The notes below the pieces were generated by a model. It ran no database searches and was not told the DNA's origin. It saw only the letters and a list, made by a program, of their open reading frames with translations. The position numbers were made by a program, and so were the translations under genes. Positions 9,538 through 45,581 of a DNA stretch of 62,188 nucleotides are shown piece by piece. How positions within the stretch are numbered: the first letter of the stretch is position 1; every line of letters begins with the position of its first letter. This DNA is from Candidatus Brocadia sp. (GTDB taxonomy: Bacteria > Planctomycetota > Brocadiia > Brocadiales > Brocadiaceae). The stretch is taken from the NCBI GenBank assembly GCA_011525665.1, contig WYAU01000055.1, positions 1-62,188 on the forward strand. The letters run 5' to 3'.

Positions 9538-9549
9538 TTCCTTTTCCTT

Positions 9550-29697: not shown

Positions 29698-30642
29698 TTA
29701 ATGTTCTTCCGTCGCGTCGTCAATCTTCGCCCATCGTTTACCTAACGGCTTTTTCCAACGAACATCGACATATTCCATCTGCTTGAGATTTGTTCCTTCC
29801 GTCTTTGCTATGCTAAGAAGGTTTTGCAATTTCTCTTCATCGGAAAGCTCATTGGGTTCTTTACATAAAGGCGAGCATCCCCAGCGTATTTGCGTATTAT
29901 TTTCCGTCCACAATACAATATCACTCTTGCCCGTAAACCGCCTTTTGCAGACATTTGATACATCAACTGCCACAACCTTAAAAAGATTATGGATGGTATT
30001 TGCCCTGAGAAATTTCACCAGCTCTACCCCCGCTTCAACGCCTTTATCATTCCATTTACTTCCATGGAGAGGCAATCGGGCGAGTTTATTGCTCTGGATA
30101 CAGGGGCTCGCGTACTCTACATTTTGTAACTTATAATATTCTTTTGGCAGCAAGACACACTCATCATCGACAAGATACGCATTACTCCCGCTCTTGACGA
30201 GGGCAACAGGCTTGCGCAGGACAAGTTTGATATTGAGTTTATTGGGGAAAACCCTCTTGATCGAGTCGACTTTCTTAACGACAACAATTCCCCCGTAAAC
30301 GTCTGCAATTCTTTGGGTCAAATTGTTTTCGTACATGCCATAGCGGTCGTTTAAAGTTCCTACCTGTTTTATATCATCAGAAAAATGATCATTTACCCAG
30401 GAAGGCGTATAAAAAGAGAACGTCGAGGGACTAACCTTAAAAATATTTAAGTCTGTCAGAGAACACCATATCCTTTTTATTCCCCATATCATAAAAACCA
30501 TGATACAGACAAATACCCCCAACCGCAAAAAAAGCGGATAGATTATCCTTTTCGCTCCCCCTAATTTGGCGGAAAGGATATCCGCAACGGCCTTAAGGGG
30601 AAATATATGACCACGGTTAATTTTGAATTGTTTCATCGGCAC
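29698..30642 (-). CDS. ftsQ: FtsQ/DivIB-like cell division protein
   Basis: A 314-residue bitopic protein with a membrane helix at about 38-58. A periplasmic region follows with a POTRA-like segment (about 70-150) and a beta-rich FtsQ-type domain (about 150-300), including RVFPNKLNIKLVLRKPVALV and DVSN. FtsQ links FtsB/FtsL to the divisome. Similarity is weak, as is usual for FtsQ, but the position after ddl is the classical one. The start overlaps the ddl end by 26 nt; Met3 (30636) would reduce this. It is the last gene of the cluster: no ftsA or ftsZ follows, and the next gene is convergent. Confidence 0.75.
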   Translation of the reverse strand: MPMKQFKINRGHIFPLKAVADILSAKLGGAKRIIYPLFLRLGVFVCIMVFMIWGIKRIWCSLTDLNIFKVSPSTFSFYTPSWVNDHFSDDIKQVGTLNDRYGMYENNLTQRIADVYGGIVVVKKVDSIKRVFPNKLNIKLVLRKPVALVKSGSNAYLVDDECVLLPKEYYKLQNVEYASPCIQSNKLARLPLHGSKWNDKGVEAGVELVKFLRANTIHNLFKVVAVDVSNVCKRRFTGKSDIVLWTENNTQIRWGCSPLCKEPNELSDEEKLQNLLSIAKTEGTNLKQMEYVDVRWKKPLGKRWAKIDDATEEH

Positions 30643-31618
30643 TTACCAGTGTCCCCTGAAATGCGAGATCAACAATTTTTTCACATAAAGAAGGGAAGGA
30701 TATACCCGCTGCTCTTGCAGCTTTCGGCAGCAAGCTTTTTTCCGTAAAACCAGGGATCGTATTTACTTCCAATAAATAAAAATTATTCTCATTCAGCAGC
30801 ATATCGACTCGTGAAAATCCCCGACAACCAAGCACCTTATGCGCACGGAGAGCCAGTTCCTGCGCAGCATCATAGAGGGAGGACGACAGAAATCCACCAT
30901 CTCGTCTGGGATTGCCGGCGGTATCTCCCTTTTCTCTTTGGGCTGTCTGCACGATGAGGTATTCCGTTCTGTCATCCTTATATTTCGCATCGTAATTAAA
31001 AAACTCCATTGCCGGTCTAATCTCAATGAGGGGCAACGCCCTGTCATCTAATACACCAACAGTGAATTCCCTCCCCTTTATATATTTTTCTATAATCACT
31101 TCATATCCAAACTCAAATGCCCTTTCCAAGCCTGGCTGAAGATCTTTCATGTCTTTCACGATTGATATGCCTATGCTGGAGCCATTCCGGGTAGGTTTCA
31201 AAACTACCGGCAACGCAAGCCTCATAAGCTCATGCCGTATCTCCCGCAATTCCTGGAATTCTGTCACGGCAACATAATCCGGTGTTTTCAGGCCCGCATC
31301 GATAAAACATTTTTTCGTTGCCAATTTATCCATTGCAAGCCTGCTGGCATTGACACCGGAACCCGTGTAGGGAATCCCCTTTGATTCTAAAAGTTGCTGC
31401 ACACCCCCGTCTTCACCAAAATATCCGTGTAAAGCAACAAAGGCAACATCTGTTTCCTTATGATCCAGATCTTCAATCTTCTCGTCTTTCACATCGATGC
31501 AGGAAACATTGTATCCGCTGTTCATCAATGCCTTTGCCACAGCATTACCGGAGCGCTGTGAAATTTCACGTTCAGGAGACACCCCCCCCATCAGCACTAC
31601 AACATTTTTTGGCTTCAT
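30617..31618 (-). CDS. ddl: D-alanine--D-alanine ligase
   Basis: A 333-residue ATP-grasp enzyme that makes the D-Ala-D-Ala dipeptide of peptidoglycan. The N-terminal GGVSPEREISQRSG (about 11-24) and ALHGYFGEDGGVQQLLE (about 62-78) are family signatures. The central ATP-grasp region has KPTRNGSSIGI and IIEKYIKGREFTVGVL. The C-terminal metal-binding segment is LEVNTIPGFTEKSLLPKAA. It is adjacent to murC (15 nt) with no murB between them, unlike the layout in many other bacteria. Confidence 0.96.
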   Translation of the reverse strand: MKPKNVVVLMGGVSPEREISQRSGNAVAKALMNSGYNVSCIDVKDEKIEDLDHKETDVAFVALHGYFGEDGGVQQLLESKGIPYTGSGVNASRLAMDKLATKKCFIDAGLKTPDYVAVTEFQELREIRHELMRLALPVVLKPTRNGSSIGISIVKDMKDLQPGLERAFEFGYEVIIEKYIKGREFTVGVLDDRALPLIEIRPAMEFFNYDAKYKDDRTEYLIVQTAQREKGDTAGNPRRDGGFLSSSLYDAAQELALRAHKVLGCRGFSRVDMLLNENNFYLLEVNTIPGFTEKSLLPKAARAAGISFPSLCEKIVDLAFQGTLVSADETIQN

Positions 31619-31633
31619 CCCACATTCTCCTTT

Positions 31634-33076
31634 TCAGAATCCTGAAACGAAATCATAAGCAACTTTCCACACGTCACCCGCACCCATTGTCACAACAACA
31701 TCGCCGGGTTTAACACTCGACGAAAGGACATGCACAATATCGGTTAATTGCGGTATATACTGGACATCCACACCCGCATTACGGGTTTCTTCATAGAGCT
31801 TCACAGAATTCATTACAGTTCTTTCATAATCATTGTCACGCGCTGCGTAGATATCCGCAAGAATTACCCGGTCGGCATGTTGAAAAGATTTTGTGAATCC
31901 CTTCAATAAATGGCGTGTCCTGCTATATTGATGAGGTTGAAACACACACCATATTCTCTTTTCGGGATAGAGTTCCCGCGCCGCCGTCAATGTAACACGT
32001 ATCTCTGTCGGATGGTGTGCATAATCATCGATTACCGTAATGCCATTTCTCACGCCAATGATCTGAAAACGTCTGTTCGCTCCCGTGAAAGATGCCAACG
32101 CTGCCTTAATAGAATCTCTATCCACTCCTATAAATGTACATACCGCGGTAGCAGCCAGCGCATTTAACACATTATGAGCCCCCGGTATTTTTAACAAAAA
32201 TTCACCAAAAAAGGTGTTTTTTTTAAAGACCTTAAATCTGTTGATACCACTCCCCCCGGAAATGATCTCTCCACACCAATCAGAGGAGACGTCAAGAGAA
32301 TATGTTTCTACCTTACAATGCGCTCTTTTTACGGCAACAGATATGTTATCGTCATGATTATTGACAACCAGCAGGCCGTCTCTTGAGATTGATGATGCAA
32401 AATCACCAAAGGCATTTATTATTTTTTCAATATTTTCGTAATAATCCAGATGATCTTCTTCTATATTGGTAATCACACCCACTTGCGGAGTAAGATTTAA
32501 AAACGACCGGTCATATTCACAGGCCTCTGCCACAAATAAATTTCCCTTTCCCAGATGCGCATTGCCGCCGATACCCGGCACCTCTCCGCCTATAACAAAT
32601 GTCGGATCCAGCCCCGCCGCTTTTAATACCGTCGAGATCATGGCGCTTGTAGTCGTCTTCCCGTGGGTACCACTGATTGCAATACCACGTTTTTCTTGCA
32701 TTAATGAGCCGAGTATTTGAGAATATTTCACTACCTTTATCCCCATCTTACGGGCAGTTTTCAAATCGGGATTATCTTCAGAAATCGACGCTGACACTAC
32801 CACCATGTCTGTTTCAGCCGGCATCAGACTTCCATCTTGTTTCGTATTAATTTTGGCGCCCATTTCTTCCAGCGTTGAAGTCAGGGAAGATGTCCGCACA
32901 TCTGAACCGGCGACAACGCAGCCCTCATGAATAAGAATGCGCGCAACGGCGCTCATTCCAATACCACCGATACCGATAAAGTATACGCAATGCCCGCGTA
33001 AAGGTCGACAATTAAATTGTTTTTCCAAAGACACCTTGGATGCCTTGATATTGTCCATACCTTCTGAAAAATTCAT
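31634..33076 (-). CDS. murC: UDP-N-acetylmuramate--L-alanine ligase
   Basis: This 480-residue Mur ligase adds L-Ala to UDP-MurNAc. The N-terminal Rossmann domain carries VYFIGIGGIGMSAVARIL (about 32-49). The central ATPase domain has the P-loop SGTHGKTTTSAMIS near 134-147 and NIEEDHLDYY. The C-terminal domain includes VIDDYAHHPTEI near 349-360 and VFQPHQYSRT. Length is standard. There are two Met codons near the start (33076 and 33058), and both leave the Rossmann domain intact. Confidence 0.97.
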   Translation of the reverse strand: MNFSEGMDNIKASKVSLEKQFNCRPLRGHCVYFIGIGGIGMSAVARILIHEGCVVAGSDVRTSSLTSTLEEMGAKINTKQDGSLMPAETDMVVVSASISEDNPDLKTARKMGIKVVKYSQILGSLMQEKRGIAISGTHGKTTTSAMISTVLKAAGLDPTFVIGGEVPGIGGNAHLGKGNLFVAEACEYDRSFLNLTPQVGVITNIEEDHLDYYENIEKIINAFGDFASSISRDGLLVVNNHDDNISVAVKRAHCKVETYSLDVSSDWCGEIISGGSGINRFKVFKKNTFFGEFLLKIPGAHNVLNALAATAVCTFIGVDRDSIKAALASFTGANRRFQIIGVRNGITVIDDYAHHPTEIRVTLTAARELYPEKRIWCVFQPHQYSRTRHLLKGFTKSFQHADRVILADIYAARDNDYERTVMNSVKLYEETRNAGVDVQYIPQLTDIVHVLSSSVKPGDVVVTMGAGDVWKVAYDFVSGF

Positions 33077-33189
33077 AGATTGTTTCCTCTTTTACCTGAC
33101 AATCTGTTAAAATTCCTCTCATTTCCTGAGAATGCCTTTGGCAACGTCTTTTTCGATACACGGCAAATGAGAATCCCCCTCCTATTACG

Positions 33190-34314
33190 TCAACCGACAA
33201 TCAGCGCAAATTGGGCACTTTTAAGACCAATCACCCTGCAGATATTATCAACTACATTCACCGACGCATTCGGGATCCCCATTCCCTTGCTAAACATCTT
33301 CATCCTGTCATACTTCTCTTTATTATGAAAAAGATCGGTAATAAGTTCGACGATTTTTTCAGGCGTCAAATCAATCTGTTGCAACAAATATCCTCCCCCA
33401 TTGCTAGCCAATTCCATTGCATTCCAGTACTGGTGGTTATCGGCTGCGTGGGGGTATGGTATTAGTATGGCGGGAATACCGATTGCCGTAATCTCTGCAA
33501 TCGTCGTTGCGCCCGCCCTGCAAACGATCACGTCTGCCATACTAAAAGCAGCGCCCATATCATCCAGAAAACTACAAACGAACGCATCGATCTTCGCTCG
33601 TGCATATGCAGCCTTTGCCTCTTCGTGCCCGTATGCACCCGTGCAATGGATTATTTGCACGTTGTTCGCCAGCATCTCTAATTTAGGCAAACATTTTACT
33701 ATAACCTCATTGATTGCCCGCGCGCCCTGGCTCCCTCCCATAATCAAAAGCGTTTTTTTAGAAGGGCTTAACCCGAATTTCTCAGCGGAACGGCCTCTTT
33801 TGCTCAACAGGATATCCTTCCGTACGGGCGTCCCTGTCACCCGGACAATTTTTGCTTTGTTAAACCACTTAATCGGGCCACGCCAATGACAATACACCTC
33901 ATCAACCCATCGGGCTAGAAAACGATTCGCCTTCCCGGGAACAACATTTTGTTCAAGCAGCACGGATGGAATTCCAAGCAATTTTGCAGCGATAATTGCC
34001 GCAACCGAGGAGTATCCACCCAAACCAATCACGATGTCAGGGTTAAATCTTCTCAGTACAAAAAGGGACTCAACGAAACTGGCAAGCATTGTACCAAAAA
34101 AAGTAAATATCTGTTTGCATGATCTCCCCAATTTTTTCACATGCAACTGCCGATATTGAAATCCTTTCTGTTCCACGCATCGCTTTTCAAACTCTTTATC
34201 CGTCCCAAAAAAGATAATCTCCGCCTCATGAAACCTCGAACGAATTTCTTCTGCCGCACTCAGCCCCGCCATCAAATGTCCGCCGGTGCCACCCCCCGCA
34301 AAAATCGCTTTCAT
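33190..34314 (-). CDS. murG: UDP-N-acetylglucosamine--N-acetylmuramyl-(pentapeptide) pyrophosphoryl-undecaprenol N-acetylglucosamine transferase
   Basis: A 374-residue GT28 enzyme that converts lipid I to lipid II at the inner face of the membrane. It has the glycine-rich FAGGGTGGHLMAGL (about 4-17), GLGGYSS near 97-103, and the second glycine loop MGGSQGARAINE near 194-205. The donor-binding segment is CRAGATTIAEITAIGIPAILIPYP. It lies between ftsW and murC as in most dcw clusters. Confidence 0.97.
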   Translation of the reverse strand: MKAIFAGGGTGGHLMAGLSAAEEIRSRFHEAEIIFFGTDKEFEKRCVEQKGFQYRQLHVKKLGRSCKQIFTFFGTMLASFVESLFVLRRFNPDIVIGLGGYSSVAAIIAAKLLGIPSVLLEQNVVPGKANRFLARWVDEVYCHWRGPIKWFNKAKIVRVTGTPVRKDILLSKRGRSAEKFGLSPSKKTLLIMGGSQGARAINEVIVKCLPKLEMLANNVQIIHCTGAYGHEEAKAAYARAKIDAFVCSFLDDMGAAFSMADVIVCRAGATTIAEITAIGIPAILIPYPHAADNHQYWNAMELASNGGGYLLQQIDLTPEKIVELITDLFHNKEKYDRMKMFSKGMGIPNASVNVVDNICRVIGLKSAQFALIVG

Positions 34315-34436
34315 TTTTATACCCCTTTTTCCTCAAATAACGCTAGTTCAAAAATTAAACACATGACACATTACGGGTCATCTCGTGTTTAAGATTTACA
34401 CACGCTATGGATTACACAAGCAGTTACTTTTCCCTC

Positions 34437-35636
34437 CTATCGCCAGGAAAAACCGGCCACACTCGTTGTAATCTTTTGCCAAATTCTCACAAGCAATAGT
34501 CTACCCATCGTATCTTCCACAGTCTCTCCTGCAACTGGCAGGCCGGAAGGATCCCCGGCTGCAGACTGTCTTGAGACGTTAACCAGTATGCCAATCCCCA
34601 TAAGCGAGAATAGCAACGAAGATCCCCCCGAACTAAGAAAAGGCAAGGGAATACCCTTTGTCGGCACAATGCCGGACACAACCGCAATGTTTATAACTGC
34701 CTGTAAGCCGAACATTACTGTAATCCCAAGCCCTACAAAAAACCCGAACACATCTTTTGCCCTGTGGACAATCCTCAGTCCCTGCCACAGTAACAGCAAG
34801 AAGAGGGTAATAATTGCTATTACTCCAAGAAAACCAAACTCTTCTCCCAAAATGGTAAATATAAAATCACTATTACTTTCCGGCAAAAAAAACAATTTTT
34901 GTTTACTGCCTCCAATACCTAACCCCGTCAATCCCCCGGAACCAAGGGCAATCCATGACTGAATTATATGATATCCCGTTCCGGAGGGGTCCTTCCACGG
35001 GTCGAGAAAAGCCATCAATCTGTCCTTTCTATAGGAGACCTCAAATATCATTTTGTGTATAAAGGGCACAAAAGCGATGGCAGTAAAGCAGACAAAAATA
35101 ATTCTTGTTCCCCCCACAATCAGCATGATCAAAGACAGAATTGCAATAAATGCAGCGGTCCCGAAATCCGGTTCCATCAGTACAAGGGCGCTTATTACCC
35201 CAATAACGCCAAGGGGTATTAAGAAACCACGCTTGAATTCGGACATACGACTCTGATTTTTAGCGATGTAACTCGAAATAAATATGATAACAGCCAATTT
35301 CATAAGTTCAGACGGTTGGATTCCAAAAACATGATTGAATCGAATCCATCTGCGGGCGCCGTTGGCAACCGTGCCTATACCGGGCACCAATACCAGGGAA
35401 AGAAGGACAAAAGAAATAACCAGAATGGGAACACTCAGTTTCTGCAAGTAATGATAGTCTACTATTGACATTGTCACCAGTAACAGGGAACCTATGAGTA
35501 TCCACAGAAGATGCTTCATGGACTGATAGCCATTCCCCCCGGAGACTGCGGTTGTCATATCTGTGCTATACACAGTAACGATACTAAATCCCAACAAGAT
35601 AACGACAATATAGATAACAAAATGCCATGGTTTCAC
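34437..35636 (-). CDS. ftsW: Peptidoglycan glycosyltransferase FtsW
   Basis: A SEDS-family polymerase of 399 residues with about ten membrane helices. Signatures include GARRWIRFNHVFGIQPSELM, PDFGTA near 160, and the C-terminal GIPLPFLSSGGSSLL. The start is taken as the GTG at 35636 (MKPWHFVIYI), 14 nt after the mraY stop and preceded by AAAGGAGAGG. An upstream ATG at 35699 would overlap mraY by 49 nt and add a non-membrane leader. In most bacteria murD lies between mraY and ftsW; here they are directly adjacent. Confidence 0.93.
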   Translation of the reverse strand: MKPWHFVIYIVVILLGFSIVTVYSTDMTTAVSGGNGYQSMKHLLWILIGSLLLVTMSIVDYHYLQKLSVPILVISFVLLSLVLVPGIGTVANGARRWIRFNHVFGIQPSELMKLAVIIFISSYIAKNQSRMSEFKRGFLIPLGVIGVISALVLMEPDFGTAAFIAILSLIMLIVGGTRIIFVCFTAIAFVPFIHKMIFEVSYRKDRLMAFLDPWKDPSGTGYHIIQSWIALGSGGLTGLGIGGSKQKLFFLPESNSDFIFTILGEEFGFLGVIAIITLFLLLLWQGLRIVHRAKDVFGFFVGLGITVMFGLQAVINIAVVSGIVPTKGIPLPFLSSGGSSLLFSLMGIGILVNVSRQSAAGDPSGLPVAGETVEDTMGRLLLVRIWQKITTSVAGFSWR

Positions 35637-35650
35637 GAATACCTCTCCTT

Positions 35651-36727
35651 TTATAGCAGGGCAAAACCGAACACAGCCAACAGGGCTGCAACTATCCAAA
35701 ATCTGAGTGTGATCTTCGCCTCAGGCCATCCCTTAAACTGGAAGTGGTGGTGCAGGGGTGCACAGCGGAAAATCCTTTTCTTTGTCATTTTATAGAAAGA
35801 AACTTGTATAAGGACAGAAACCGCCTCTGCGATAAAGACACCCCCCAGAATAACCATCAATACCTCTTGCTTTACGATAACAGCAATGAGCCCCAGTATA
35901 CCTCCCAGGGTTAATGATCCAGTATCTCCCATGAAAATCTGTGCGGGAAAACAATTGTACCATAAGAATCCCAATCCCCCCCCTGCAACTGCTGCGCAAA
36001 AAACACTCAGTTCCCCGCTTCCCGGTATATAGGGGATCCTCAAATAATTACTGAAATCAACCCTCCCTGAGATATAGGCAACAACCGCAAAAGCAATTCC
36101 TGCAATCACGCTGCACCCTATCGCAAGACCATCCAGGCCATCCGTGAGATTGACGGCGTTTGACATCCCCACGACAAAAAAGGCAACAATAACTATATAG
36201 AAAGGACCTACATCGGGTTTGAAATCTTTAAAAAAAGGAATGGCCAGCTGCGTACCCCATGTGAATTTGCTAAAATGGAAATACACTATCAACCCCAAAA
36301 TAAGCCCCAACGCTGATTGAAACAGCAGCTTCGACACATCCGTCAAACCCGGTACATTTTTTTGCGTAAGTTTGATATAATCATCGATAAATCCCAGCAC
36401 GCCTAACCATATCAACGTAAACAGCGACAAGAGAATATATTCATTGTAAATATTGCACCAAAGGAGGGTTGAAATTAAAACAGAGGCGATCACGATAATC
36501 CCTCCCATTGTTGGCGTGTTCTTTTTGTCACAATGCATACGTTTGAGTTCTTCGGAGTCTTTTTTTGTTGTATCCTCACCGACGTTCAAAGCCCGAAGTT
36601 TTTTGATAAACCAACGACCAAAAAAAATGCTGATAAAAAATGCCGTAAAAGCAGCCAAACATGAACGGGAGGATATGTATTTCAATACTTCCGCCGAATA
36701 GAGCGAAGAAAACAAATTATAGAGCAA
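35651..36727 (-). CDS. mraY: Phospho-N-acetylmuramoyl-pentapeptide-transferase
   Basis: A 358-residue integral membrane enzyme that makes lipid I from UDP-MurNAc-pentapeptide and undecaprenyl phosphate. It contains KKNTPTMGGIIV (about 69-80), the catalytic DDYIKLT near 117-123, and NAVNLTDGLDGLAIG near 192-206. GDTGSLTLGGILG and HHHFQFKGWPE follow near the C-terminus. About ten membrane helices are visible. It lies 29 nt downstream of the sensor kinase gene, which separates it from murF. Confidence 0.96.
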   Translation of the reverse strand: MLYNLFSSLYSAEVLKYISSRSCLAAFTAFFISIFFGRWFIKKLRALNVGEDTTKKDSEELKRMHCDKKNTPTMGGIIVIASVLISTLLWCNIYNEYILLSLFTLIWLGVLGFIDDYIKLTQKNVPGLTDVSKLLFQSALGLILGLIVYFHFSKFTWGTQLAIPFFKDFKPDVGPFYIVIVAFFVVGMSNAVNLTDGLDGLAIGCSVIAGIAFAVVAYISGRVDFSNYLRIPYIPGSGELSVFCAAVAGGGLGFLWYNCFPAQIFMGDTGSLTLGGILGLIAVIVKQEVLMVILGGVFIAEAVSVLIQVSFYKMTKKRIFRCAPLHHHFQFKGWPEAKITLRFWIVAALLAVFGFALL

Positions 36728-36756
36728 AACTTTTTAAACCTTTCTTTGACAATCTT

Positions 36757-38478
36757 TTAATTTATGAAATTCTCCACCAGGGCATCCGGAACAATCTCAT
36801 CATCGCCGCTAAAAAGCGCCTTTGTTTTTTTACTTTTTTTAAGAACGGACGGGACCTCCATTTTCTTCGTAAGTTTTCCAGGCAGAGGAAGCCGCACAGT
36901 AACGACAGTACCAACACCACGTTCGCTATCGATGACAATCCGGCCATGGTGTCGTTTAATTATTTCCTGAGCAACACTCATCCCCAATCCCATACCCCTG
37001 GATCCTTTTGTCGTAAAAAATGGCTCAAATACCCTCCTTTTGGTCTCTTTAGACATCCCTTCGCCCGTATCAAAGAATCGAACAGAAACATACCTCCCAT
37101 TCGTTCTTGTTTGAATCGTAAGTTTCCCTCCCTTAGGCATGGCATCAACCGCATTGAACAAGATATTGGTAAAAACCTCTCGTAATTCCGAGGCGTTTCC
37201 TTCCACCACCGGAGTTGCCGTAGAATCAACGTCAACCCGCACGGTTATTTCTGCATGCTCCGGGTCTCCAGACCATTTTGGTTCCGTCATTCGCACAACA
37301 TCGTTTACCATATCATTAATATTGATTGTGGCAAATTCTTTTGAAGCGCAAATTCCCGTAAATTCCCGGACCCTTCTCACAACATCGCTTCCGTCCAATA
37401 CGAGCTTTTCAATAGTCTGCAATCGTTCGCACGTTGCGGCATCGACATTCCGGGAAAGTAACATGTGGATGTGACCGAGAATGCCGCTCAGCACATTATT
37501 AAAATCGTGTATTACACCGGTAGCCAATTCACCCAAAACCCTTAATCTTTCTGATTGTGTCAGCTGTGACCTTGCAGACTCCAAGCTTTCATGAAGAAAG
37601 ACGTTATCCAAGACACTCGCAACAATACATGCCACCATTTTCAAAACTTTCAGTGTGCTTTCCGTGAAGGATTCCTTTTCCTGACTACTTCTTAAGAAAA
37701 GAACCCCGACTGCATCCCCTTTCAACAGAATAGGAAGAACAACAATGATATGACCTTTCAGAAACTTTCTCTTGTCTCTTACGTCTTTCATTAACGGATC
37801 AGGACAAACAGAGTGGGCAACGACAGCATCTTTCGTCTCTAATGCCTTCTTTATCTCTGGATAATTATCGAGCGTTATCCCGGAATGTATGTCCGGGCCA
37901 TCATAAGAAGCAATTATCCGGGCAAATTTCCTTCCACAAGTCGCACGAATAATAGAGCAACGGGTTGCATTCATGCGGATGGCGACTTTTCTGACAATGG
38001 TATGCAGAATTTCCCTGTTCGTTTGAGCGGAGGACGAGTTCTTCATTATCTCCAGAAACGTCTCCGAATCGGATTGGTGTGCATCCGGTACGCCCGCGCT
38101 ACACCTCCGCACAAGTATGCGATGTATACGGCATTGTAACTCAACCGAATTCAAAGGTTTGGTGATTACATCATCTACTGCAAGGAGGGTATAATCAGAA
38201 CCGCAACCGCCATCCGCACAATTTATCATTGCCAAAATACCGGGTTTGTTACGGGCAGAGGCGCTGATGAAAGAGATGAATTCGGGTATATTTATCCCTG
38301 AAGAATCGCAATCAAGCAAAACCAAGTCTGTTCGAGCATTTTGAATTTTTGTAAACGCCTCTCCGGCATTATAAGTAAAATCGACATGGTAAACCTCTTT
38401 TTTCAGCATATTCCGTATGCCAGAGCAAAGGGTATTGTCTCTCCCGATCAACAACACCTTTTTTCGTTTATCCATCAT
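36757..38478 (-). CDS. Response-receiver/GAF/histidine kinase protein inside the dcw cluster
   Basis: A 573-residue soluble signalling protein. The N-terminal receiver domain (about 1-120) keeps the phosphoacceptor Asp in VLLDCD near 55-57 and the Thr-Lys pair in DVITKPL. A GAF domain (about 145-310) follows. The HisKA region (about 325-390) has the phospho-His in GVIHDFNNVLSGILGHIH. The HATPase domain (about 420-540) has the N box TNILFNAVDAMP, FDTGEGMS and RGMGLGMS. No membrane helix is present. It is codirectional with murF (41 nt) and mraY (29 nt), so it should be cotranscribed with cell-wall synthesis genes. Its partner and signal are unknown. Confidence 0.88.
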   Translation of the reverse strand: MMDKRKKVLLIGRDNTLCSGIRNMLKKEVYHVDFTYNAGEAFTKIQNARTDLVLLDCDSSGINIPEFISFISASARNKPGILAMINCADGGCGSDYTLLAVDDVITKPLNSVELQCRIHRILVRRCSAGVPDAHQSDSETFLEIMKNSSSAQTNREILHTIVRKVAIRMNATRCSIIRATCGRKFARIIASYDGPDIHSGITLDNYPEIKKALETKDAVVAHSVCPDPLMKDVRDKRKFLKGHIIVVLPILLKGDAVGVLFLRSSQEKESFTESTLKVLKMVACIVASVLDNVFLHESLESARSQLTQSERLRVLGELATGVIHDFNNVLSGILGHIHMLLSRNVDAATCERLQTIEKLVLDGSDVVRRVREFTGICASKEFATININDMVNDVVRMTEPKWSGDPEHAEITVRVDVDSTATPVVEGNASELREVFTNILFNAVDAMPKGGKLTIQTRTNGRYVSVRFFDTGEGMSKETKRRVFEPFFTTKGSRGMGLGMSVAQEIIKRHHGRIVIDSERGVGTVVTVRLPLPGKLTKKMEVPSVLKKSKKTKALFSGDDEIVPDALVENFIN

Positions 38479-38519
38479 ATTGTTTCCCCATCAAAAACAA
38501 TCATGGATTCATAACCGCT

Positions 38520-39896
38520 TTATAATAATTCCCTGCATTTCTCGATAAGATTTTCCATATGCATACTTCGGGAACCCTTGATTAACACCACGTCATTTTC
38601 TCGGAGCTCCTGGATATCTGACACCGTGATATCAGCAACGTCCTTGAAACTGCTGATCCGTTCTTCATGCATACCGGACAATTTTGCGGCCTTTGCAATT
38701 TCAGACGCGCGTTCTCCCACCGTCCATAGCAAATCAATATCGAGATGGGCCACTATTTCCCCGATTTCTCTATGCAACTGCAAAGATTCTTCTCCTAGCT
38801 CGAGCATGTCTCCGCAAATAAATACCTTTCTCCTCGCTGTATCCGTTTCATTGAGATATTCCAAAGCTGCACGCACCGACGCAGGATTTGCATTGTAGGC
38901 GTCGTTAATGAGTGTTATATTCCCCATGCGCTGTTGTTCAATCCTCATGTGAGGTAGCGCAAAGGAAGAAAAAGCATCCTTCAGATCGCTGATCCGATGC
39001 CCCAGTGCACGGCATACCGCAAAAGACGCCAAACAGTTATAAATATTATGATAACCCGGAATGGGAAAATATATTTCACAGTTTCCGTCAATTATCAAAA
39101 CATAACCCCGGTCTCTTTTCTTCACGCCAGTACAGCGTACCCGTGCGTGAGGATTAAAACCAAAACTTACTGCGTCTCCCCCGAATCCTCCGGAAATCTT
39201 AACACACCAGGGATTATCAGCGTTATACACAAATACACCGTCTTTGCCGAGATTTTCCAGTATTTCCCCCTTGGCCAGTGCAACCCCCTCGATACTGCCG
39301 AGACCCTCGAGATGGGTCTTTGAAACATTCACAATCACGGCAACGTCAGGGGCGCCGATGTCAGATAAACGTCGAATTTCCCCCGGGGCATTTGTGCCCA
39401 TTTCCAGCACACCGTACCGATGCCTATTCTCAATTTCAAATATCGTTAACGGTACGCCGATAAAATTATTAAAACTTTTTTGTGATTTTACCGCCGGACC
39501 GAAATAAGACAATAAGTGGTGCGTCATCTCTTTCGTGGTTGTCTTCCCATTGCTCCCGGTGATCCCGATAATTTTCGTTTCCAATTTTCGGCGATAATAC
39601 TTTGCCAGATCACCTAACGCCTTTACAACGTCCCTTACCCGAATCAGGGGAAAATCCATGCATCCGAACTCCCGTTGCATTTCATGTGAAACAACCGCGC
39701 CCCTTGCGCCGGCATTCATCGCCTGCCGAATAAACTGATGACCATCGTACCGCTCCCCTCTAAGCGCAAAAAACAAATCTCCTTTTCGGATATTTCGGCT
39801 GTCCGTGGATACACCCCGTACCTGTATACTTTTGTCGCCAGGCGCCATACTCCCGCGGACAGCATTTGCCACATCATCAAGAGATAAAACTTCCAT
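38520..39896 (-). CDS. murF: UDP-N-acetylmuramoyl-tripeptide--D-alanyl-D-alanine ligase
   Basis: This 458-residue Mur ligase attaches D-Ala-D-Ala to the tripeptide precursor. The N-terminal domain recognises the uracil-containing substrate (GVSTDSRNIRKGDLFFALRG near 28-47). The P-loop GITGSNGKTTTKEMTHHLL lies near 110-128. MGTNAPGEI, NVSKTHLEGLGS and NDAYNANPASVRAAL are family motifs. It follows murE by 17 nt. Confidence 0.97.
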   Translation of the reverse strand: MEVLSLDDVANAVRGSMAPGDKSIQVRGVSTDSRNIRKGDLFFALRGERYDGHQFIRQAMNAGARGAVVSHEMQREFGCMDFPLIRVRDVVKALGDLAKYYRRKLETKIIGITGSNGKTTTKEMTHHLLSYFGPAVKSQKSFNNFIGVPLTIFEIENRHRYGVLEMGTNAPGEIRRLSDIGAPDVAVIVNVSKTHLEGLGSIEGVALAKGEILENLGKDGVFVYNADNPWCVKISGGFGGDAVSFGFNPHARVRCTGVKKRDRGYVLIIDGNCEIYFPIPGYHNIYNCLASFAVCRALGHRISDLKDAFSSFALPHMRIEQQRMGNITLINDAYNANPASVRAALEYLNETDTARRKVFICGDMLELGEESLQLHREIGEIVAHLDIDLLWTVGERASEIAKAAKLSGMHEERISSFKDVADITVSDIQELRENDVVLIKGSRSMHMENLIEKCRELL

Positions 39897-39913
39897 TTCG
39901 TTGTTTCACCTGC

Positions 39914-41383
39914 TTAAATACGCGCTACCCCAGCGCCCTCCAGGATTTGCCTTACGATCTCGCGATCGTCAAAAGGGATTGTGGCACCTTTTGTTATCTG
40001 ATAGTGTTCATGACCCTTTCCTGCAATAATTACAGCATCACCCTTTTTTGCCTCCGAGAGTGCTTCTGCAATAGCAGTTTTTCTATCGGAGTGCACCCGG
40101 AAAGAACCGCGCTTTCTTACGCCTTTTTGAATTTCGGATATAATATCATAAGGGTCTTCGGAGCGGGGATTATCGCTTGTTATCCAGAAAAGGTCTGAGT
40201 ATTTTTCTGCAACATGCCCCATTTTGGGCCTTTTCTTTCTGTCCCTATCTCCGCCGCATCCAAAAACCAAAATAACGCGTCCTGCCGTTATTGCCCGCAG
40301 GGTACTCAGGACAACCTGCAACGCCTGATGCGTGTGGGCGAAGTCAATATAGACATCGAAATCCTGTCCACAATCAACTTTTTCCAGACGACCCGCTACG
40401 ACGCTTAAAGATTCAATACCCGCTTTTATTATATCAATCTTAAAACCCAGCGCCAATGCATTGGCAGCTGCGGCCAATGCGTTATAAATATTATGTTTAC
40501 CGGTCAATTTTCCGTTAACAAGCGCTTTCCCCCACGGGGAATTCAGTAAAAATTTTGTTCCCTCTGCGCCCATGTGTATTATTTCGGCGGTTACATCCGC
40601 ATTCTTTTTCTTTATACCATACCAGACGACCGGTGATTTTGCGCACTCCGCAAAATGTTTACTCGCATTATGATCGGCATTCAGGATGGCAAACCCTTTA
40701 GCGCCTAATCCTTTTACCAGTTTAAGCTTTTCCGCTCTGTAATTCCTTATATTTGCATGGTAATCAAGATGCTCAATGGATAAATTCGTAAAGATTGCGG
40801 AACTGAAACGAACCCCATCTAACCGGTGCTGAGAGAGGGCATGCGAGGATGCTTCTATTACCGCGTATTTTATACCTGATGTAAGCATTTCGGACAGATA
40901 ACTCTGGATTTCAACTGATTCGGGAGTAGTCTCCTGTGCGGGTATCACCCTGTTTCCTATCTGGTAGTTAATCGTGCCTATCAGGCCGGCCTTCTCTCCG
41001 GAAGCTTCAATGATTGATTTTGTAAGATATGATGTGGTTGTTTTACCGTTCGTTCCCGTAATGCCGACAACAGTCATGCGGGAAGAAGGTTCTCCATAAA
41101 AACAGCAGCTCAGCGTCGCAAGGGCAGAGCGTGTATTTGAAACGATGATCCGCGGTATTTGTGGAGTAACATCGACCTTTTTTTCCACAACAAGCGCAAT
41201 GGCCCCTTTCTCACGCGCATCGGCAACAAAATCGTGTCCATCCACCTTATGCCCTTTGATGGCAACAAACGCATAACCTCCTTGGACCCTTCGTGAGTCA
41301 TGGGTTATCCCGCACACTTCCTTTTCCACAAAATCGGAATATTCGTGGTCTTTCAGACAAGAACAAAGCTCACTTAATTTCAT
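39914..41383 (-). CDS. murE: UDP-N-acetylmuramoyl-L-alanyl-D-glutamate--2,6-diaminopimelate ligase
   Basis: This 489-residue Mur ligase adds the third amino acid of the stem peptide. The P-loop VVGITGTNGKTTTSYLTK lies near 104-121. ASSHALSQHRLDGVRF and NLSIEHLDYHANIRNYRAEK (carrying the carbamoylated Lys) follow. The C-terminal specificity motif reads SDNPRSEDP; DNPR is the form found in meso-diaminopimelate-adding enzymes, so a DAP-type stem peptide is predicted. Confidence 0.96.
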   Translation of the reverse strand: MKLSELCSCLKDHEYSDFVEKEVCGITHDSRRVQGGYAFVAIKGHKVDGHDFVADAREKGAIALVVEKKVDVTPQIPRIIVSNTRSALATLSCCFYGEPSSRMTVVGITGTNGKTTTSYLTKSIIEASGEKAGLIGTINYQIGNRVIPAQETTPESVEIQSYLSEMLTSGIKYAVIEASSHALSQHRLDGVRFSSAIFTNLSIEHLDYHANIRNYRAEKLKLVKGLGAKGFAILNADHNASKHFAECAKSPVVWYGIKKKNADVTAEIIHMGAEGTKFLLNSPWGKALVNGKLTGKHNIYNALAAAANALALGFKIDIIKAGIESLSVVAGRLEKVDCGQDFDVYIDFAHTHQALQVVLSTLRAITAGRVILVFGCGGDRDRKKRPKMGHVAEKYSDLFWITSDNPRSEDPYDIISEIQKGVRKRGSFRVHSDRKTAIAEALSEAKKGDAVIIAGKGHEHYQITKGATIPFDDREIVRQILEGAGVARI

Positions 41384-41421
41384 AGACCCTTACTTGGCTT
41401 TCCGTAGAAATCCCCTGCTTT

Positions 41422-41667
41422 TTAACGGGAAAAACAATTTATTTTCAATGTTGCATCAAAGCCCTGTGTTTTTTTACTCTTTGATTGAATAATCCGCTCG
41501 TACAAGTGCCTTGTCCTGTTAACCTTATCAACTTCCTCGGCATATTCCTTTAAAAGTCTGTCCAGGATTTCCCTGTTGTTCGTCCGGGCAATTTCAAGCT
41601 CTTTTTCCGTGGCATACAAACTGTACCATAAGATAAAATTTTGTTTTTCAATTTCTTTTTGCGTCAT
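41422..41667 (-). CDS. Small coiled-coil protein between ftsI and murE, unknown function
   Basis: An 81-residue acidic/basic protein (starting MTQKEIEKQNFILWYSLYAT) predicted to be almost wholly helical, with a probable coiled coil over residues 15-60. It has no signal peptide or membrane segment. It is codirectional with ftsI and murE and fills the space between them, so it probably belongs to the operon. The family was not recognised. The low-complexity region around it makes coding status probable, not certain. Confidence 0.5.
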   Translation of the reverse strand: MTQKEIEKQNFILWYSLYATEKELEIARTNNREILDRLLKEYAEEVDKVNRTRHLYERIIQSKSKKTQGFDATLKINCFSR

Positions 41668-41782
41668 CTTTTCGCCCCTTTCCTTTGCCCATATCTCTCG
41701 TAAAAACTAAAAATATATTATCATAGATTTCTTGTCTTTTCACGCCATCAAAATCACGTCTACGGGAATACGCAGAAAAGAA

Positions 41783-43522
41783 CTATTGCATTGCCATTTT
41801 GAATCCCGAGGGTTCCACTCCCAGATAAACAAGAGATCGTCTTATGATCTCCCCTACAACGGGGGCTGCAACGATACCGCCATAATATTCACCTTTCTGA
41901 GGTTCATTAATCATAACCAGGACACAAAGACGGGGTCGCTCCGCGGGAGCATAGGCGATAAAAGAGCCCACATATTTTTCATGAGAATATCGCCCTCCTT
42001 CACCCTCGATCTTTTGTGACGTACCCGTTTTTCCCGCGACATCGTATTCCAGCAGGTTTGCATTCTTCCCTGTGCCTTCGGCAACAACCCTCATCAGTAT
42101 AGGATTCATGACATTCCGTGCAACGTTTGCATTCATTACCCGCCTCACGGGTTGCGGACACGGGAAATCATCCCGTGCCTGGTTATTGTTTTTTATTATT
42201 GATTTTACAATCTTCGGGCTGAGCAACAGTCCGCCATTGGGAATGCTGCAGAAAGCCGTAATAAACTGGAGCGGCGTGACTGCTATTTCGTGTCCTATGG
42301 AAACGGATATCAGGGAGTATTTTTTTGACCACTGCTTCACAGGACGGAAGATGCCGCCAATTTCTCCCGGCAGCTCTATCCCCGTTCTTTCTCCAAAATT
42401 GAATTGCTTAAGATATCGGTACATCTTTTCATTTCCCATGAGCATACCTATTTTAGCCATTCCTATATTACTCGAATGAATGATAATCTCAGAAACGGTA
42501 AGATTGCCATATCTATGTGTATCACGCAGCTTCCTCCCCTCTATATTGCCGCTGCCATTTTCGCAAAAAAAAACGTCGTCAGGCCTTGCCACACCCTGCT
42601 CAAACACACCCGAAATCACGAGGGGTTTCATCAATGAACCCGGCTCATAACAATCGGTGATAGCCAGATTTCTCCTGGCTCCCGGAGGATATTTTTTGAA
42701 ATGATTGGGATTAAACGCAGGATAGTTGGCCATGGCCAATACTTCCCCCGTCATCGGATCCATAACAAGTGCCGTTGCGGAGGAGGGTTTCCATTTTTCC
42801 CAGGCAATTTCCAGCTCTTCCTCGGTGATACGCTGAATATTCGCATCAATCGTCAATACAACGTCATTCCCGTGTCTGGGCAATTGTACTTCTGCATCCG
42901 GCGTTATAATCTGACGTTGCAGCGCGTCCCGAACGATCAATTTATACCCGGTTTCCCCGGACAGTACCTCATCAAATGACAGTTCGATTCCTTCGAGTCC
43001 CTTTTCGTCAATATTGGCAAATCCGAGGATATGACTGCCCAAGTGGTCATGGGGATAAAAACGGTGATACTCGTGTTTTATATACACCCCTTTGAGAGAC
43101 GATTTTGCTACCAAACCGAGTTCTTCATCACCGATCTTTCGCTTAATCCAAACAAATCGATTGCCTTTATTCAGGAGTTTGCCTATCCTTGATGGACTAA
43201 GTTTTAGTATCTTTCCGAGTTGATTCGCCACATGAGAGGGATCTTCAATTTCGGCAGGGTCGGCATACACGGAACCGACTTGTAAAGATTCTGCAAGCGT
43301 GATTCCGTTTCTGTCCAGGATGGAGCCTCTTCTTGCAGGCAACTCAATCTTTTTGCACTGCTGCATTCTCGCCAGTTCCAGATATTTATCATGTTCACCG
43401 AGTTGGAGCCGCCCTAAATGAACCGCCAGCGCAATAAAAATCCCGATGAGAAAAATACCCGTTATGTTGGCCCAAAATTTGTGTTTTTTTAAAGGCGTCA
43501 TATTGACAATTCCCAAAGGCAT
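41783..43522 (-). CDS. ftsI: Division-type transpeptidase FtsI (PBP3/PBP2B class)
   Basis: A 579-residue class B penicillin-binding protein. It has one N-terminal membrane helix (about 17-37) and a PBP dimerisation domain (about 55-200, with RRGSILDRNGITLAES). The transpeptidase domain contains all three motifs: SLMK near 293 (catalytic Ser), SSN near 348, and KTGTS near 498. No PASTA repeats follow. It should crosslink septal peptidoglycan with FtsW. Met8 (43501) is an alternative start. It is separated from the ftsL-like gene by 241 bp carrying an inverted repeat. Confidence 0.94.
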   Translation of the reverse strand: MPLGIVNMTPLKKHKFWANITGIFLIGIFIALAVHLGRLQLGEHDKYLELARMQQCKKIELPARRGSILDRNGITLAESLQVGSVYADPAEIEDPSHVANQLGKILKLSPSRIGKLLNKGNRFVWIKRKIGDEELGLVAKSSLKGVYIKHEYHRFYPHDHLGSHILGFANIDEKGLEGIELSFDEVLSGETGYKLIVRDALQRQIITPDAEVQLPRHGNDVVLTIDANIQRITEEELEIAWEKWKPSSATALVMDPMTGEVLAMANYPAFNPNHFKKYPPGARRNLAITDCYEPGSLMKPLVISGVFEQGVARPDDVFFCENGSGNIEGRKLRDTHRYGNLTVSEIIIHSSNIGMAKIGMLMGNEKMYRYLKQFNFGERTGIELPGEIGGIFRPVKQWSKKYSLISVSIGHEIAVTPLQFITAFCSIPNGGLLLSPKIVKSIIKNNNQARDDFPCPQPVRRVMNANVARNVMNPILMRVVAEGTGKNANLLEYDVAGKTGTSQKIEGEGGRYSHEKYVGSFIAYAPAERPRLCVLVMINEPQKGEYYGGIVAAPVVGEIIRRSLVYLGVEPSGFKMAMQ

Positions 43523-43562
43523 TTATGAAGCTATCATAATCATTATCATTGAAAAATATTTA

Positions 43563-43607
43563 CGGACGCTTTCAAGACAAAAAACATCTTTGCCCCGAAA
43601 GCGTCCG
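43563..43607. repeat. Perfect 11-bp inverted repeat between ftsL and ftsI
   Basis: CGGACGCTTTC (43563-43573) and GAAAGCGTCCG (43597-43607) are perfect inverted copies separated by 23 nt. In the dcw transcript this forms a stable stem-loop 41 nt before the ftsI start. It is not followed by a T-run on the minus strand, so it is not an ordinary intrinsic terminator. It could be an mRNA processing or attenuation element. The rest of the 241-bp interval shows no gene. Confidence 0.6.
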
Positions 43608-43763
43608 GGAGGAGGGCTCAACAGATACGAAAACACACCAATTGCTTTGCCATGCATGCACAACAACCTCTTCGTAATAATTGTGACGCAGTTAGGGGCG
43701 GAGCCTTTTTGCCAACTGCCATCAGGGGAAAAACGACTCTACTTCTCTGGATGCCCAAAAATT

Positions 43764-44144
43764 TTAATAATGCAAAGAACAACAATCCACAGCCATTCCC
43801 TTTTGGGTATATAAATCCTTCTTCAGGTTCGTCTTCATCGTTTTCATCGTTTTCGTCACGCTTTTTTTCACTTTTATCCGTCCGGCTACCATTATTCCCG
43901 ATGAATCTTCCTGCAGAACAAGAGGCAGCTTCAGTGACTGTACCTTATAGGCCACATTTTCAGGTGTTTTTAACCGGCCGACATGATAGTTCAGCTTTCT
44001 ATTTGTTTCCGATAACTCATCACAATGCCTTTGCAATTTAGCCACCTGATACCCTACTTCTATAATTTTGTTTCTTTCCCACACCACGAACACCGCCATT
44101 GCAATTGCTATGACAAATATTACCAATATCCTCGATACATTCAT
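43764..44144 (-). CDS. ftsL: FtsL-like bitopic division protein
   Basis: A 126-residue protein with an N-terminal membrane helix (VSRILVIFVIAIAMAVFVVW, residues 3-22). A periplasmic leucine-zipper-like coiled coil (about 28-62) with KLQRHCDELSETNRKLNYHV follows. This is the FtsL/DivIC architecture, and the place between rsmH and ftsI is the standard ftsL locus. A low-complexity basic tail (KTMKTMKT) ends the protein. It starts 1 nt after the rsmH stop. FtsL sequences are poorly conserved, so the call relies on topology and position. Confidence 0.75.
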   Translation of the reverse strand: MNVSRILVIFVIAIAMAVFVVWERNKIIEVGYQVAKLQRHCDELSETNRKLNYHVGRLKTPENVAYKVQSLKLPLVLQEDSSGIMVAGRIKVKKSVTKTMKTMKTNLKKDLYTQKGMAVDCCSLHY

Positions 44145-44145
44145 A

Positions 44146-45042
44146 TCAAATCCTTTCTGCAGACCTCAGTTTTGCGCTCCTGCACCGAATATTTCTTTGT
44201 CTCTCAACCTCGCCCGGAGTTACCGGCTTCTTTGTAAGTATCGTGAATATCTTCTGGTTGGCCCTTTCTGCAAATACATTCTTTACAATCCGATCCTCAA
44301 GAGAATGGAAACTTATAACTACAACGCGGGCACCCGTTTCCATGTAAGTATGAATCCTATCCAAAAAACCCTCTAAACTTTCCAACTCCCTGTTTACCGC
44401 AATTCTCAACGCCTGAAAGACCCTTGTAGCCGGATGAATTTTACTTTTCCCTTTCGGTATAACCCGTTCAATTAAGTCGGCCAGTTGCCTCGTTGAAGCA
44501 ATACCTCCCGCATCTGCTTCCCTTCGTATCGCCCTTGCAATCCGCGCTGACCATCGCTCTTCCCCGTATCTTCTGAATAATTCTTCCAATTCCTTTACGG
44601 AAAACCTCCGGATTAGCTCCTGAGCAGTACCCCCTTGTGAACGGTCCATTCTCATATCCAGCGGTCCCTCTTTCGAGAAACTAAAGCCGCGGTCCGCCCG
44701 ATCAAACTGCAATGAGGACGCCCCTAAATCAAGCAACACGCCATGAACCTTTCTGACTCCTGCCTGCCTCAATACCTCGTCAACATCGGAATAGTCGGCA
44801 TGGTAAAGTTTAAAAGGGCACCCTATTTTTGAGAGATAGTGTTTTGCCATCTGCAAAATTTCCATGTCCCTATCAATGCCAATCAAAAAACCGTCCGGGC
44901 CTATTTTTGTCATAATTCTGCCTGCATGCCCCCCGTTTCCCACGGTGCCGTCTAATATGATGTGGCCCGCTTTCGGACGGAGGTAATCTAGCACTTCTTC
45001 GACCATCACAGGCTGGTGAAGAAGGTTGTTTGTATCATCCAT
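44146..45042 (-). CDS. rsmH: 16S rRNA (cytosine-1402-N4)-methyltransferase RsmH
   Basis: This 298-residue SAM-dependent methyltransferase (formerly MraW) modifies the ribosomal P-site. It shows HQPVMVEEVLDYLRP at the N-terminus, the SAM motif ILDGTVGNGGHAGRIM near 29-44, and VLLDLGASSLQFD near 100-112. RGFSFSKEGPLDMRMD, ATRVFQALRIAVNREL and VISFHSLEDRIVK follow. It is the second gene of the dcw cluster, 12 nt after mraZ. Confidence 0.97.
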   Translation of the reverse strand: MDDTNNLLHQPVMVEEVLDYLRPKAGHIILDGTVGNGGHAGRIMTKIGPDGFLIGIDRDMEILQMAKHYLSKIGCPFKLYHADYSDVDEVLRQAGVRKVHGVLLDLGASSLQFDRADRGFSFSKEGPLDMRMDRSQGGTAQELIRRFSVKELEELFRRYGEERWSARIARAIRREADAGGIASTRQLADLIERVIPKGKSKIHPATRVFQALRIAVNRELESLEGFLDRIHTYMETGARVVVISFHSLEDRIVKNVFAERANQKIFTILTKKPVTPGEVERQRNIRCRSAKLRSAERI

Positions 45043-45054
45043 TTCGCCTGACTT

Positions 45055-45543
45055 CTATAACGAGGGGGGTTGTATCTGCCCTGCTTCTGCGGAAGGAAAA
45101 CCCAATTGGAACAAATCTTCAGCAATCTCTTCGAATCCCTTGTTATGTTCGGACTCGAAATCCTTCCAGGCCTTTTCATCCCAAACCTCAATACGGCTGC
45201 TTACCCCTACAATCACGACATTTTTTTGAATCCTGGCAATATCTTTTAAATACTGTGGGATCAGGATACGTCCTTGTTGATCACAATCGGGAATTTTCTG
45301 TGCTTTGGAAAAAAAAAGGCGCTGGAACTGGCGCGCCTTTTTATTCGTAAAAGAGAGTTGTTCTATCCGAAAAACGACACTCTGCCATACCCTGGGTGTG
45401 TACATGAATAAACATGTATCGAGTCCTCGAGTTATAAAAAATCCCTTTCCATCCTTCTCCACATCGATACTCTCACGAAGAGGGGCTGGTATGGCCAGTC
45501 TATTTTTGTCATCAATCGTATGATGGTACTCACCGGTGAACAT
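45055..45543 (-). CDS. mraZ: Transcriptional regulator MraZ
   Basis: A 162-residue member of the AbrB-like MraZ family with two tandem swapped-hairpin motifs. The first is near residues 1-50 (MFTGEYHHTIDDKNRLAIPA). The second is near 75-125 and includes DQQGRILIPQYLKDIARI. The ATG at 45543 gives the canonical MFTGEYHHTID start. An upstream in-frame GTG at 45561 would add six residues but lies inside the putative operator. A short tail after 140 (SEHNKGFEEIAEDLFQLG) extends past the usual length. MraZ represses or tunes its own dcw operon in studied bacteria. Confidence 0.94.
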   Translation of the reverse strand: MFTGEYHHTIDDKNRLAIPAPLRESIDVEKDGKGFFITRGLDTCLFMYTPRVWQSVVFRIEQLSFTNKKARQFQRLFFSKAQKIPDCDQQGRILIPQYLKDIARIQKNVVIVGVSSRIEVWDEKAWKDFESEHNKGFEEIAEDLFQLGFPSAEAGQIQPPSL

Positions 45544-45555
45544 TTTGGTTTTATT

Positions 45556-45581
45556 CCCCACTTTTCACCACTCGATACCAC
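45556..45581 (-). promoter_or_regulatory. Putative MraZ operator: three GTGG boxes at 10-bp spacing
   Basis: On the minus strand GTGGTA (45581-45576), GTGGTG (45571-45566) and GTGGGG (45561-45556) recur exactly every 10 bp just before the mraZ ATG. MraZ of studied bacteria binds tandem TGGG/GTGG repeats at one helical-turn spacing upstream of its own gene. The match in sequence, spacing and position is strong; binding is inferred. Confidence 0.7.

Follow-up and report, generated by a model that had tools for sequence, protein, structure and literature searches.

Two-component systems have been tied to envelope, division or wall genes in several cases: CenKR, NtrYX and MtrAB are reported to act on envelope or division, and in Burkholderia glumae the two-component regulator GluS/GluR acts on the dcw genes, with normal division unaffected by mutation of gluS (PMC8281045, in the sections available). 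GluS/GluR has a regulator of the OmpR type, and those sections of PMC8281045 give no dcw location for it. For planctomycetes, the accessible sections on dcw clusters describe loss and degradation and no inserted kinases (PMC5147048, PMC4432640). Among open-access PMC titles and abstract openings, we found no description of a histidine kinase between murF and mraY. Such a kinase is present in the window, by which we mean the whole stretch of 62,188 nucleotides that was analyzed, from assembly G000 (genus g1); we refer to it as the window copy. The features of the locus are as follows:

29698..45561, minus strand: dcw cluster with mraZ, mraW (rsmH), an ftsL-like gene, an ftsI-like gene, a small ORF, murE, murF, the kinase, mraY, ftsW, murG, murC, ddl and an ftsQ-like gene (NCBIfam, with the ftsL-like and ftsQ-like names tentative)
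38520..39896, minus strand: murF, upstream of the kinase across a 41-nt gap (TIGR01143, 422.1 bits against a cut-off of 288.6)
36757..38478, minus strand: C-terminally truncated histidine kinase, 573 residues, ATG start (ORF, Pfam and alignment)
38113..38478, minus strand: N-terminal receiver, residues 1-122, with Asp56 and Lys107 kept, Gly12-Arg13 and Ile85 (Pfam and alignment)
37600..38112, minus strand: GAF region, residues 123-293 (Pfam; dN/dS 0.39 in g1 against 0.05-0.09 in three pairs from genus g11)
36871..37599, minus strand: kinase core, residues 294-536, HisKA with His324 (GVIHDFNN) and HATPase_c (Pfam and motifs; dN/dS 0.18)
36760..36828, minus strand: stub of a lost C-terminal receiver, residues 551-573 (aligns with the receiver start in the g11 form and in a hybrid kinase of G013)
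35651..36727, minus strand: mraY, downstream of the kinase across a 29-nt gap, TTG start in the longest reading (TIGR00445, 374.3 bits against 192.05)

A reading frame of 573 codons without internal stop fills exactly 36757-38478 on the minus strand; the plus strand across it carries many stops in the frame read. An earlier reading of this DNA, made from the sequence only, had placed a soluble protein between murF and mraY at 41 and 29 nt from its neighbors, and that placement is exact, with all three genes on one strand and both neighbors named by NCBIfam; the description as soluble fits a Pfam scan of the protein, which gave no membrane domain. Nine dcw genes score above their NCBIfam cut-offs (mraZ, mraW/rsmH, murE, murF, mraY, ftsW, murG, murC and ddl), the ftsI-like transpeptidase falls under every cut-off (best match spoVD, 470.9 against 688 bits), and the ftsL-like and ftsQ-like names are tentative. 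Neither the murF-kinase nor the kinase-mraY gap contains a terminator-like or promoter-like site, and the region as a whole shows no excess of either (9 terminator-like sites against 8.5 in shuffles, and 10 promoter-like sites against 14.8). The shared strand and close spacing suggest that murF, the kinase and mraY are cotranscribed.

Other details of the cluster can be recorded here. Between ftsI and murE lies an ORF of 81 residues (41422-41667, minus strand), which by eye resembles a 100-residue ORF in the same place in G060 (L080:3276-3578); the ftsI-murE gap measures 394-430 nt in most of the family genomes where it is visible, with exceptions in G006, G009 and G013. The stretch 30617-36727 is packed too tightly to contain murB between murC and ddl or murD between mraY and ftsW. 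In G003 (L054), mraY, murG and mraZ are each matched in two pieces, a frameshift-like pattern that may reflect assembly errors.

The domains of the window protein are unequally preserved. Pfam places Response_reg at residues 8-118 (31.1 bits, cut-off 30.2), GAF at 155-287 and HATPase_c at 428-533 (85.9 bits, cut-off 26.4), whereas HisKA at 316-373 scores 20.5 bits, below its cut-off of 26.9; in the G030 ortholog the same domain reaches 28.6 bits. The earlier description of an intact HisKA/HATPase stands for the ATPase domain and for the phospho-acceptor histidine, which is kept in all eight copies in an alignment of orthologs; for HisKA as a domain it is not fully confirmed. His324 lies in GVIHDFNN, and the protein has the usual kinase boxes. 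The N-terminal receiver does keep its Asp, as had been claimed, but of the sites by which we judged it (Asp, Lys, acidic pair and Thr/Ser) only Asp56 and Lys107 remain. The acidic pair is Gly12-Arg13 in the window copy, Glu-Arg in G010 and Glu-Lys in the five g11 copies that cover the site, and the Thr position is Ile in both the window copy (Ile85) and G010, and Thr in the g11 copies covering it. Since Gly12-Arg13 replaces the acidic pair and Ile85 the Thr, ordinary phosphorylation of this receiver is unlikely. The AlphaFold2 model of the protein, built on a six-sequence alignment, is too poor for use (mean pLDDT 49.0, pTM 0.34).

The earlier domain account, otherwise borne out for REC, GAF and HATPase_c, had overlooked the C-terminal end of the window protein, residues 551-573. 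The five complete g11 proteins are 670-677 residues long from ATG, and by alignment a C-terminal receiver is found in all six g11 copies, one of them partial; its sites look canonical by eye. In G030, the g11 copy tested with Pfam, Response_reg covers residues 550-659. The window and G010 proteins break off early in this receiver: where a hybrid kinase has its fused C-terminal receiver, they have only a 23-residue stub. The window stub matches the beginning of the g11 receiver in the alignment and, by BLASTP, the beginning of the C-terminal receiver of the G013 hybrid kinase.

It is instructive to compare both forms with characterized kinases, for which we used four NCBIfam models (NF008468, NF010411, NF046020 and NF046026, for AtoS, VirA-like and CckA-type kinases, with cut-offs of 646, 647 and 1000 bits). 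The window protein matches AtoS with 163.2 bits over residues 301-533 and the VirA-like model with 150.2 bits (251-536), both far under the cut-offs; the G030 form matches the VirA-like model best (186.5 bits). Its scores against the two CckA models, NF046020 (109.9 bits, 304-541) and NF046026 (83.7 bits), are well short of the cut-off of 1000; the G030 form reaches 169.7 bits, its match running through the C-terminal receiver (profile 469-867 of 868). The window kinase has a REC-GAF input in place of the PAS input of CckA, and the window copy lacks the C-terminal receiver. In the PDB, a sequence search led to typical kinase cores: Sporulation kinase B and ZraS scored highest, and FixL chimeras came lower. 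The domain set of the g11 form, REC-GAF-HisKA-HATPase-REC, recurs in the G013 hybrid kinase (L091 12613-14718), and the architecture as such is therefore not new. That protein is 29% identical to the g11 form and to the window protein over about 420 residues, lies off the dcw contig (C219 versus C174) and has receivers that are canonical by eye; its N-terminal receiver fails to align with that of the g11 form in BLASTP. It belongs to a group of three genes in G013 (L091:8485-14721, off the dcw contig), together with a REC-GAF-PAS protein (8485-9954) and a further kinase-like ORF. This REC-GAF-PAS protein is the one non-orthologous match to the REC-GAF half at E≤1e-15 among 392 genomes of the phylum (with at most six candidates scored per genome in the rows listed). 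A search of genome contigs gave six distant kinase relatives.

We consider it probable that the window gene descends from an ancestral hybrid kinase that was captured by the dcw cluster, truncated in g1 and repeatedly lost, a dispensable guest of the cluster and not a required controller of murein synthesis. On this account, the common ancestor of g1 and g11 would already have had a REC-GAF-HisKA/HATPase-REC kinase between murF and mraY. The g11 protein, kept whole, may take its input through GAF and the altered N-terminal receiver, phosphorylate its own His and pass the phosphate on to its own C-terminal receiver, as the chemistry of such proteins would predict. The g1 line would then have lost the C-terminal receiver, with the stub remaining and the start of mraY unharmed. 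Kinase activity probably persists in the window copy, which may still phosphorylate itself and is likely expressed together with murF and mraY; but it lacks an output domain of its own, its N-terminal receiver is unlikely to be phosphorylated, and it evolves under relaxed selection.

To evaluate the selection on the kinase quantitatively, we calculated dN/dS (NG86, with 95% bootstrap intervals) for the pair G000 and G010. The value for the whole kinase is 0.299 (0.237-0.379), an estimate from two copies only, in which the branch that changed is indistinguishable, while nine neighboring genes of the same pair give 0.062-0.148, pooled 0.107 (0.095-0.121). Within g11, three pairs give 0.087-0.109 for the whole kinase and 0.051-0.120 for single domains, and a separate run on four pairs, two of them the same, gives 0.084-0.112 for the whole kinase. 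Selection on the whole g1 kinase is thus about three-fold weaker than on its neighbors and on the g11 kinase. The relaxation is uneven along the g1 protein: dN/dS is 0.310 (0.178-0.517) for the N-terminal receiver, 0.392 (0.248-0.608) for GAF, 0.176 (0.114-0.258) for the kinase core and 0.909 (0.425-2.123) for the tail, residues 537-573. The interval for the core overlaps those of murF and mraW, so that the core by itself is not distinguishable from these genes; the core clearly remains under purifying selection. It would be wrong to call the window kinase dead, because its frame is open, its catalytic boxes are present and its core is constrained.

These same features (core dN/dS of 0.18, catalytic boxes kept, frame open in both g1 copies) could also be expected if loss of the receiver had freed a functional kinase to act in trans on an unlinked response regulator, with GAF as the sensor and the altered N-terminal receiver used for docking; altered receivers can act as docking domains. 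We regard such rewiring as unlikely: a working sensor should be conserved, yet GAF too is relaxed in g1, at 0.39 compared with 0.05-0.09 in g11; the gene has been deleted in near relatives; and a Pfam scan of ten dcw proteins found no separate response regulator among them.

A search in which up to 41 first-look candidates were scored per genome found orthologs in 8 of 33 family genomes, all in genera g1 (G000 and G010, two of 11 genomes) and g11 (G027-G032, six of seven), and at the murF-mraY locus only. The kinase adjoins mraY in all eight loci, one of which (G028) has its kinase copy cut by the contig end, and adjoins murF on all six contigs that reach that far, those of G028 and G031 ending first. 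Conservation of the insertion in relatives had been proposed as a check, and the gene is indeed shared beyond the window rather than absent from all relatives. Nevertheless, murF and mraY meet without the kinase in 23 of the 31 family genomes that are informative (the junctions of G012 and G014 cannot be judged), which is not the distribution of a standard dcw member present across the lineage. In other genomes of the order, murF and mraY lie on one contig in 23 of 29, with 50-249 nt between match ends.

We take the family to be anammox bacteria because the hydrazine synthase alpha model (PF18582) matches 19 of its 33 genomes, in seven of 11 genera and twice in eight genomes, and none of 14 controls; the model has no match in the 111 contigs of G000 itself, perhaps, as a guess, through loss in assembly. 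The sequence-only reading had supposed a bacterium without FtsZ, and this is upheld by the ftsZ model TIGR00065, which matches none of the 33 family genomes and 13 of the 14 controls. That reading went further, proposing an active phosphorelay node that reports on or controls wall synthesis or division in such a bacterium. In its favor are the missing ftsZ, the position conserved in two genera, the strong purifying selection in g11, including that on the C-terminal receiver (0.08-0.11, three pairs), and a separate two-component cassette in the dcw cluster of another family of the same order, described below. For the window copy the proposal is quite improbable, and control of wall synthesis by this route is not sustained: the C-terminal receiver is gone and the N-terminal one altered, selection is relaxed, most informative junctions have no kinase, and the gene was repeatedly lost, leaving scars in near relatives. 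A position inside an essential operon is no proof of a role in that pathway, and the window copy is more probably a passenger that the cell can spare than the master switch for wall synthesis.

The scars were found by comparing murF-mraY spacers with kinase DNA, using 200 dinucleotide shuffles for each spacer. Four of the nine kinase-less spacers in g1 and g11 contain significant relics (scores of 79 in G006, 51 in G008, 41 in G011 and 353 in G026, each with 0/200 shuffles as high), and the other five, in G003, G004, G005, G007 and G009, contain no significant relic at 200 shuffles; for these five, the tree would imply loss. None of 15 other spacers reached 0/200; five were too short for the test. 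The relic test is not sharp at low counts, because low values also occur among these other spacers (G017 1, G025 2, G036 6, G016 7 and G024 7 of 200 shuffles). Aligned to G010, the G006 spacer shows a deletion of 1639 nt of the kinase (kinase nt 2 to 1642) and the G008 spacer a deletion of 1622 nt (nt 26 to 1649) with a different left end, and both deletions spare the murF end and the mraY start. Against G000, the alignment of the G008 spacer breaks into scattered blocks with no single clean deletion, and one additional block of 8 nt appears in G006.

The losses were placed on a FastTree phylogeny of concatenated dcw genes, with local support values, in which the rows of G012, G014 and G031 cover 27-31% of columns. 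The tree pairs G006 with G010 (1.00); G000 (1.00), which has a long branch, and then G008 (0.99) join this pair. The deletions in G006 and G008 most plausibly represent two separate losses, because G006 is sister to the kinase-bearing G010 and G008 lies further out. A Dollo count gives six losses, three within g1 and one in g11 (G012 and G014 left out), of which those outside g1 and g11 are uncertain because the node uniting g11 with g2 and g8 is weak (0.57). A recent horizontal transfer between g11 and g1, with recombination in the flanking mur genes placing the gene at the identical junction, would suit the patchy distribution (8/33) but is rejected as highly improbable, since silent sites of the kinase have diverged between the two genera (pS 0.58 and 0.63, two pairs) within the range of seven neighboring genes (0.56-0.72), pointing to vertical descent in both genera, and the relics in G006, G008 and G011 indicate that the gene was once wider in g1.

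The captured hybrid kinase thus appears in several conditions at one locus: whole and constrained in g11, truncated and loosened in g1, and removed from near relatives in which murF and mraY lie side by side. The deletions in near relatives suggest that the window kinase is on its way out of the dcw operon. The better test of a link between signaling and the wall in bacteria without FtsZ is offered not by the window copy but by the g11 copy or the cassette described next.

In family f4 of the same order, the dcw cluster carries a different two-component insertion. Between murB and ddl lie a HisKA/HATPase kinase, a REC-HK and a REC-GAF-HD regulator (domains tested in G041, L100:1545-5245), and the cassette is also found in L092, L096, L097, L099, L102 and L103, with a further receiver-like match before ddl in L092, L096 and L097. 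The HD regulator of G041 matches Pfam HD_5, and its best NCBIfam match is a cyclic di-GMP phosphodiesterase family, at 244.8 bits under a cut-off of 400. Of 12 f4 regions fetched, 11 are informative: seven have all three genes, two the regulator alone (G050 and G046) and two neither (G051 and G035). The regulator occurs in 13 of 17 f4 genomes (on two contigs in G053) and in none of 45 other genomes of the order, at E≤1e-90 with up to 23 candidates scored per genome. Like the window, this cassette places histidine kinases inside the dcw cluster, and one of its receivers by eye has Arg at the second acidic position; however, its position and domain set differ from those of the window kinase. The G041 dcw kinases are 32-33% identical to the window core, while another kinase of G041 is closer, at 39%, and for G041, the genome tested, we therefore reject a close common origin of the window and f4 dcw kinases. 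The two cases look independent on this evidence. A broader idea, that dcw clusters of the anammox order repeatedly capture two-component genes and thereby couple the supply of wall precursors to some signal inside the cell (cyclic di-GMP is one possibility), the window being a stage at which such control is being dismantled, is one that we hold doubtful and offer tentatively.

Two further observations concern gene order. In f4 genomes murB follows murC, unlike in the window. In G060, an ORF of 171 residues with HATPase_c only (L080:901-1416) lies between the ftsL-like ORF and ftsI; over 115 residues it shares 44% identity with the core of the window kinase, and it is a possible kinase remnant.
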